NCBI RefSeq assembly: GCF_002355635.1
Contig: NZ_AP017558.1
Span: 1,488,001-1,552,000, forward strand
Origin: Halopenitus persicus
Lineage (GTDB): Archaea > Halobacteriota > Halobacteria > Halobacteriales > Haloferacaceae
Length of the DNA stretch: 64,000 nt
Direction of reading: 5' to 3'
Within the stretch, counting starts at the first letter, position 1. Every line of letters starts with the position of its first letter. This document shows positions 40,179 to 40,718 of the stretch, piece after piece. The translations under genes were made by a program, and so were the position numbers. The notes beneath the pieces are model-generated. The model searched no databases, was not told the DNA's origin, and saw only the letters and a list, made by a program, of their open reading frames with translations.

Positions 40179-40251
40179 GGGCCGGTGGGGTAGCTTGGTA
40201 TCCTTCGGCCTTCGGGTGGCCGTAACCGCGATTCGAATTCGCGCCGGCCCA
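40179..40251 (+). tRNA. tRNA-Pro (CGG)
   Basis: Acceptor stem gggccgg pairs with ccggccc, discriminator A. Anticodon arm cggcc-ttcgggt-ggccg gives anticodon CGG. T arm is cgcga-ttcgaat-tcgcg. All arms fold without an intron. The 3' half is repeated about 100 bp downstream. Confidence 0.93.
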
Positions 40252-40280
40252 CTTCTCCCGCATTTCAACTTCGAACAGTG

Positions 40281-40410
40281 TATTCTTCGGCCTTCGGGTG
40301 GCCGGAACCGCGTTCTCGTGAGCGAAGCGAACGAGAGCCAGCGAGACGAGCGGAGCGAGTCTCGCGTGGTTCGAATTCGCGCCGGCCCACTCCCCGCATT
40401 TCGATTTCGA
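40281..40410 (+). pseudogene. Broken partial copy of the 3' half of tRNA-Pro with a hairpin insert
   Basis: Begins with the anticodon arm (ttcggccttcgggtggccg), runs to aaccgcg, then is broken by about 57 bp made of two palindromes (ctcgtgagcgaagcgaacga and gcgagac...gtctcgc), then continues with the T arm and acceptor end (ttcgaattcgcgccggccca) and about 20 bp of the original flank. The 5' half and the D arm are missing, so no functional tRNA. Possible relic of integration or local duplication. Confidence 0.85.
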
Positions 40411-40415
40411 GCTCG

Positions 40416-40718
40416 TCACTCCGCTGGCGTTTGTGCGTTCGTCGCCGCGAGGTGCTCCCAGGCGAACTCGATGACCGCCCAGGCGACCAACCACGCGAAC
40501 ATCAGGACGAAGGCGATCACGGTCGTCGAGAGACCGCCGAACGGTTGCGACACCTCCAACAGCATCGGCAGCGCGAGCAGGACGGCGATCACCGCCGTGG
40601 TGCCCCCGAGCAAACAACAGAGATACGTCGACAGCGTGTCACCGGCTGCGGGCGCGTCCGCGATGCTCGGGGCGGTCCGGTCGTATTCCTCCGTCCCTGC
40701 TCTGTATGGTGTGTGCAT
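40416..40718 (-). CDS. Small two-helix membrane protein, unknown
   Basis: 100 aa. Two membrane helices: GGTTAVIAVLLALPMLLEVS and VIAFVLMFAWLVAWAVIEFA; soluble ends with a conserved-looking start HTPYRAGTEEYDR. The stop region lies at the end of the tRNA-Pro partial copy. Upstream, atttaaat and ttataac are near 40733-40760. Family not recognised, but the clear two-helix pattern argues it is real. Confidence 0.7.
   Translation of the reverse strand: MHTPYRAGTEEYDRTAPSIADAPAAGDTLSTYLCCLLGGTTAVIAVLLALPMLLEVSQPFGGLSTTVIAFVLMFAWLVAWAVIEFAWEHLAATNAQTPAE

Follow-up and report, generated by a model that had tools for sequence, protein, structure and literature searches.

The closest described counterparts of the locus reported here are the attachment (att) sites of archaeal tyrosine recombinases, which have been reviewed (PMC8371274). 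As presented in passages of that review, the attL and attR sites of SNJ2-type and pNOB8-type integrases resemble the locus in having a direct repeat of the tRNA 3′ end with its flank, and an integrase by one of the copies is found in relatives of the locus as well. The locus differs from the known attL/attR duplications in that no element is present between the copies, and in that a pair of hairpins splits the att copy. Partial tRNAs are also known from Haloferax gibbonsii LR2-5, the genome of which contains 11 of them as remnants beside a complete copy of the same tRNA (PMC7921747). These likewise lie next to a full tRNA, but hairpins, an inverted T-arm box, spacing and a count across genomes are not given in the relevant passages of that paper. 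Haloarchaeal PATEs and small mobile repeats are dispersed, gene-less, palindrome-rich sequences with near-terminal palindromes or terminal inverted repeats (PMC3119063); judging from the passages describing them, the unit studied here is similarly short, gene-less and palindromic, but, unlike them, it is bound to a tRNA core. Its assignment to PATEs or IS605-type elements was rejected, since it has no body between the palindromes and occurs as a single copy in the genome. Partial tRNAs adjacent to full ones are, according to the passages cited, already in print. A literature search of titles, abstract openings and passages yielded no description of a hairpin-split att copy or of regular units; this is no proof of absence from print, and within these sources the hairpin units are apparently undescribed.

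Structure of the tRNA-Pro(CGG) locus

The window analyzed here is a 64,000-nucleotide stretch of the haloarchaeal chromosome of Halopenitus persicus (genome G000), with an archaeal rRNA operon at 55–60 kb. It contains an intact tRNA-Pro(CGG) gene (40179–40251; reported by ARAGORN as tRNA-Pro(cgg), 40179–40252), and a copy of the 3′ half and flank of this gene (40280–40410) that starts 28 bp past the tRNA end. The features of the locus are as follows.

40179..40251, + strand: intact tRNA-Pro(CGG) gene (ARAGORN)
40232..40251, + strand: att-like core copy 1 (T loop, 3′ T stem, acceptor 3′ strand, discriminator); identical 20-mer at 40370–40389; the same core bounds live elements
40252..40274, + strand: 3′ flank copy 1; recurs at 40390–40410
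40280..40312, + strand: left fragment of the second copy (D-loop end, anticodon arm, variable loop, 5′ T-stem strand CGCG); 31/33 identical to 40198–40230
40314..40336, no strand: hairpin 1 (fold; covariation helix 2, 6/6 pairs changed on both sides)
40338..40369, no strand: hairpin 2, ending at the T loop (fold; covariation helix 3, 4/6 pairs changed on both sides)
40370..40389, + strand: att-like core copy 2, candidate solo attR core; identical to 40232–40251
40390..40410, + strand: 3′ flank copy 2 (direct repeat)

The second copy begins in the D loop, slightly ahead of the anticodon arm, and is related to the first by three direct repeats: 40198–40230 and 40280–40312 (31/33 identical), 40227–40253 and 40365–40391 (25/27), and 40257–40274 and 40393–40410 (16/18), with the 20 bp from the T loop to the discriminator the same in both. 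The best 33-bp match at a spacing of 20–200 bp had 31 identical positions, while the maximum in 60 mononucleotide shuffles was 22. ARAGORN, the direct repeats and the shuffle control thus confirm the preliminary description of a tRNA-Pro followed by a broken copy of its own 3′ half with flank. The interruption, 57 bp in length (40313–40369), is located exactly between the 5′ T-stem strand (CGCG) and the T loop and consists of two neighboring hairpins, which correspond to the two palindromes of about 57 bp described previously. The fold of the insert has a z of −2.26, with 4 out of 200 shuffles equally good. An intron-containing or split tRNA was rejected as an explanation: the copy lacks the acceptor 5′ strand and the greater part of the D arm, and ARAGORN calls the first copy only. 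At the gathering threshold, the Rfam scan of the window detected only rRNA and tRNA, and the ORF downstream of the second copy (40416–40718, minus strand) had no Pfam match. The search for the palindrome pair proposed in the preliminary description returned similar pairs from relatives, whereas in G000 itself the hairpin-split unit occurs once, and the hairpin-2 pattern, at up to 3 mismatches, has a single match.

The tRNA-Pro locus in relatives

In genomes G040 and G051, an element of 20 kb and 37 kb, respectively, lies between tRNA-Pro(CGG) and a split copy of the same kind, and both element ends are related across the two genomes. In each, a gene for a tyrosine integrase (Phage_integrase) adjoins the split copy. 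This integrase matches only Phage_integrase/SAM models and is 42% identical to the SNJ2 integrase; the att site is found upstream of the integrase start in the elements described here, but in the records of SNJ2 and Halfgib1 it lies beyond the 3′ end of the integrase. Among 293 sampled genomes of the order, 241 had a match to the integrase, and 30 loci of its relatives were read, the layout being judged by eye from 530–560 bp per locus. All seven loci with an integrase at least 93% identical (L082–L088) have the layout [CCGTAACCGCG][hairpin 1][hairpin 2][core] at the integrase-side element end, where [CCGTAACCGCG] is a variable-region fragment and the core extends from the T loop to the acceptor. 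The same layout with unrelated hairpin sequences is present at tRNA-Pro(CGG) in L089, L091, L093 and L096 (integrase 53–60% identical), and with cores of other tRNAs in L095, L106 and L108. In total, the split layout was recognized by eye at 14 of the 30 integrase loci and was absent from the 530–560 bp read at the other 16.

The comparison with related strains, which the preliminary description had recommended in search of an integrated element, was informative in congener G001, where an integrase-encoded element end is present at this site. Foreign DNA starts immediately past tRNA-Pro on one contig (L024), while another carries the integrase-side end with the core, followed by DNA 88% identical to the downstream flank of the window (L090); presumably, both contigs belong to one element. 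In G099, a live element end is followed directly by a solo unit of the window type (L084). In the window, the left fragment starts in the D loop and measures 33 bp; that of live elements is shorter, at about 11–13 bp. The only relative of the integrase in G000 itself, 43% identical, is located elsewhere, and it also adjoins a T-arm core with hairpins, as judged by eye. The IMG/VR pattern scan for free attP sites in viruses gave 0 matches, and the IMG/VR integrase scan gave 1 relative.

The locus was also searched for in 60 genomes, including G000. A match was found in 55, and the stretch behind tRNA-Pro was readable in 52 (G005, G007 and G043 were left out; G010 and G044, which are counted, probably represent another isoacceptor). 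A core copy is present within 620 bp behind tRNA-Pro in 25 of the 52 genomes, and copies with an inverted T-arm box in 10. An anticodon-arm copy like that of the window is found in 10 out of 52, namely G000, G002, G003, G004, G025, G027, G030, G038, G056 and G059 (the script label 'A' of G011, G024 and G026 was disregarded); in three of these, G002, G025 and G059, the core is lost. A pattern scan of contigs detected 11 loci, four at element ends and seven with solo units by an intact tRNA-Pro, the latter in Halobellus salinus, Halovenus salina (two units), Natronomonas sp. LN261 (two), a Halobacteriales MAG, Halobellus sp. Atlit-31R (three identical 131-bp copies), Halorientalis regularis and Halomicrococcus gelatinilyticus (two). 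Tandem solo units of two or three copies are found in Halovenus, Natronomonas, Halomicrococcus and Halobellus. In Halobellus salinus (L132), about five copies of a short, TTTGTGAYGGCTTTCA-like tandem repeat are located between tRNA-Pro and the hairpin unit.

Hairpin covariation and the origin of the second copy

Inserts were folded in 33 rows, nine of which were dropped as artefacts (start upstream of the tRNA or of the left fragment), leaving 24 inserts, 22 of them distinct. All 24 fold into two hairpins. Relative to dinucleotide shuffles, the energies are mixed, with z of about −2 to −6 for most solo units and divergent elements, and −0.3 to −0.9 for the L082–L088 inserts, the latter values being weak because these inserts are built of repeated motifs. 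Units with unrelated hairpins are split at the same T-stem/T-loop boundary. Alignment of 15 units showed that 12 of the 16 stem pairs (both hairpins and the T stem) are changed on both sides and 99.2% of cells are paired, a value that none of 500 shuffles reached. The T-stem part is weaker evidence than the hairpins, since the cores match the tRNA variant of their own host and covariation of this stem also follows from such matching. Only 3 of the 240 pair cells are G–U, which suggests that the hairpins are palindromic DNA rather than RNA under selection. The covariation of the T-stem strands and both hairpins could also be expected of a functional structured RNA, or a tRNA-like decoy, co-transcribed with the tRNA. 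Such a role is very improbable, given the scarcity of G–U cells, the lack of the acceptor 5′ strand in the copy, the restriction of the anticodon-arm copy to 10 of 52 genomes with decay in G002, and a fold of the whole copy no better than that of shuffles (z −1.19).

The identity of the window's hairpin insert amounts to 93% with the solo unit of G099, a member of another family, and to 85–88% with element ends. With the corresponding unit in congener G002 it is only 65%, even though G000 and G002 share 85% identity in the DNA preceding the tRNA. Being closer to distant units than to that of the congener, the hairpins of the window point to acquisition by spread with elements or by turnover rather than by simple descent.

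The locus thus shares with att sites the direct repeat of a tRNA 3′ end, including discriminator and flank, and the same copy ends integrase-bearing elements at the same tRNA (L082–L089, L091, L093, L096). Only 28 bp of flank, and no integrase element, lie between the copies of the window, so that an att unit there could only be a relic. Based on the split layout at live element ends, the element end in the congener, the hairpin identities, the tandem solo units and the covariation, we consider it probable, with moderate confidence, that the second copy is a relic of an attachment site (a solo unit of attR/attP type) of SNJ2-type tyrosine-integrase elements at tRNA-Pro(CGG) that has lost the element body. 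The hairpins are then favored to be a part of the att end of the element and not a chance insertion. Of the earlier suggestion of an attachment-site duplication with the element lost, the first half is favored, as the same split copy ends live elements at tRNA-Pro in other genera, whereas the loss stays conditional, with no integrase, element body or left-end remnant found in the window. Next to their integrase, such elements have a portion of the tRNA 3′ half whose 5′ T-stem strand and T loop are kept apart by two adjacent hairpins. Strand exchange by the integrase would take place inside the shared core, from the T loop to the acceptor plus flank, so that the tRNA remains intact and the element's opposite end receives the hairpin-split copy. 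From the window, the body would since have disappeared, with one end left and the duplicated flank lying between that end and the tRNA. The hairpins may serve recombination as a binding site or a barrier. An integrase that excised the element cleanly would have removed the second copy as well, which counts against a relic. So do the longer left fragment in the window, the 16 integrase loci at which the layout was not recognized, the low identity and remote position of the only integrase relative in G000, and the similar hairpin pairs found away from tRNA genes.

Units behind other tRNA genes

For each tRNA gene, a copy of its own 19-nt T-loop-to-acceptor end was searched for 10–600 bp downstream with up to 3 mismatches. 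Such a core copy was found behind 31 of the 129 haloarchaeal tRNA genes examined: 12/60 in G000 (the Asp unit being counted twice because of tandem Asp genes), 6/14 in G046 from another family (14 of 44 Rfam matches), and 9/29 in G001 and 4/26 in G002 (29 of 53 and 26 of 45 Rfam matches), the last two rates being biased upward, as ten regions of each were selected in part for having a G000 counterpart with a unit. In five phylum mates (other, non-halophilic Euryarchaeota, taken as not haloarchaeal from their position outside the order), 1 of 46 tRNA genes (of 232) had a copy, and the swapped-core control gave 8/2944. In 24 of the 31 cases the copy is located at 73–120 bp, and in 28 an inverted T-arm box is found 38–74 bp ahead of the core, with hairpins between. 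The unit of the window belongs to the less common type, which has a direct anticodon-arm fragment instead of the inverted box; in G000, tRNA-Leu(caa) is followed by a similar unit. Behind Glu(ttc), G000 has a unit with duplicated flank that is missing from both congeners, and the tRNA-Leu(tag) of G000 is followed by at least three further core copies (L124, with one sub-threshold Rfam match to HgcC), compared with a single unit in G001.

Two further observations were made among tRNA genes. The one control tRNA with a core copy, Ala-cgc of G306 outside the order, has a perfect one at +119 (L233); units of this class may thus extend beyond haloarchaea. Outside the window, about a dozen divergent tRNA genes, some of them low-scoring, are closely packed (G000:C1:1153325–1155000; L071, L113) in what looks like a virus-type tRNA array.

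Twenty further places with similar hairpin pairs were fetched from relatives, and 17 of them were judged by eye to be non-tRNA; the tRNA-linked units are L160, L163 and L166. In several haloarchaea, a dispersed non-coding element of about 200 bp contains a hairpin pair almost identical to that of the window unit, in a conserved context other than a tRNA gene (L145–L147, L153–L157); its copies on plasmids of DL31, Halolamina sp. CBA1230 and Natrinema halophilum (L145–L147) matched no Rfam family. The palindrome pair as a dispersed mobile repeat was rejected, since the 20 places comprise tRNA-linked units and other dispersed elements (e.g., L153–L157). These non-tRNA places would nevertheless suit a simple tandem duplication of the 3′ half of the tRNA together with its flank, followed by insertion of a palindromic mobile repeat with no role of an integrase, and so would the repeat geometry, with the 57-bp insertion flanked by CGCG. 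This origin is unlikely, considering that the same split forms the end of integrase elements, that its position recurs with unrelated hairpins, and that as many as 31 of 129 tRNA genes have copies. The one-off palindrome insertion into a tandem duplicate, the other possibility raised in the preliminary description, is accordingly not supported: the elements carry such hairpins as part of their att layout, and many tRNA genes are followed by comparable units.

A relic of an attachment site accounts for the repeat with its flank, for the live counterparts and for the site being occupied in the congener, but not well for the small, regular size of the units, and their uniform offset is odd for random decay of 10–40 kb elements. 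It is conceivable, if doubtful, that the unit is instead a gene-less mini-cassette, a circle of about 100–140 bp composed of core and hairpins that is inserted, excised and stacked in trans by the integrases of other elements. The offset of 73–120 bp, the identical copies in Halobellus sp. Atlit-31R and the two-copy arrays elsewhere, the Glu(ttc) unit absent from the congeners, the varying array length at Leu(tag) and the match of cores to the tRNA variant of the host would all agree with such units. On the other hand, neither a free circle nor a unit outside tRNA sites was seen, nor any recombination, and unequal crossing-over between cores also yields tandem copies. In its general form, the proposal is still more tentative: haloarchaeal tRNA genes would be docking sites for such mini-cassettes (T-arm core and hairpins, commonly in the order inverted box, hairpin, direct core), moved in trans by resident tyrosine integrases, perhaps as folded single-stranded DNA, with the unit of the window as one of them.

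Integron attC arrays consist of tandem units behind one primary site. The units described here are similar in tandem arrangement and, in their common type, in having a hairpin between an inverted and a direct core box, but they differ in having no cassette genes, no integron integrase in sight, and boxes that are tRNA T-arm sequence. Identity with attC was rejected, as the linked integrase has no models other than Phage_integrase/SAM and units of about 100 bp hold no gene.

The broken tRNA-Pro copy is therefore one case of a widespread, regular feature, as about one in four of the haloarchaeal tRNA genes examined is followed by a hairpin-carrying attachment unit. Should the hairpins prove to be a component of the integrase site, they would represent an att architecture that is absent from the passages of the review of archaeal systems (PMC8371274). 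If the units move by themselves, they would be among the smallest integrative elements known. Under either reading, the units mark preferred integration sites and past mobile elements.
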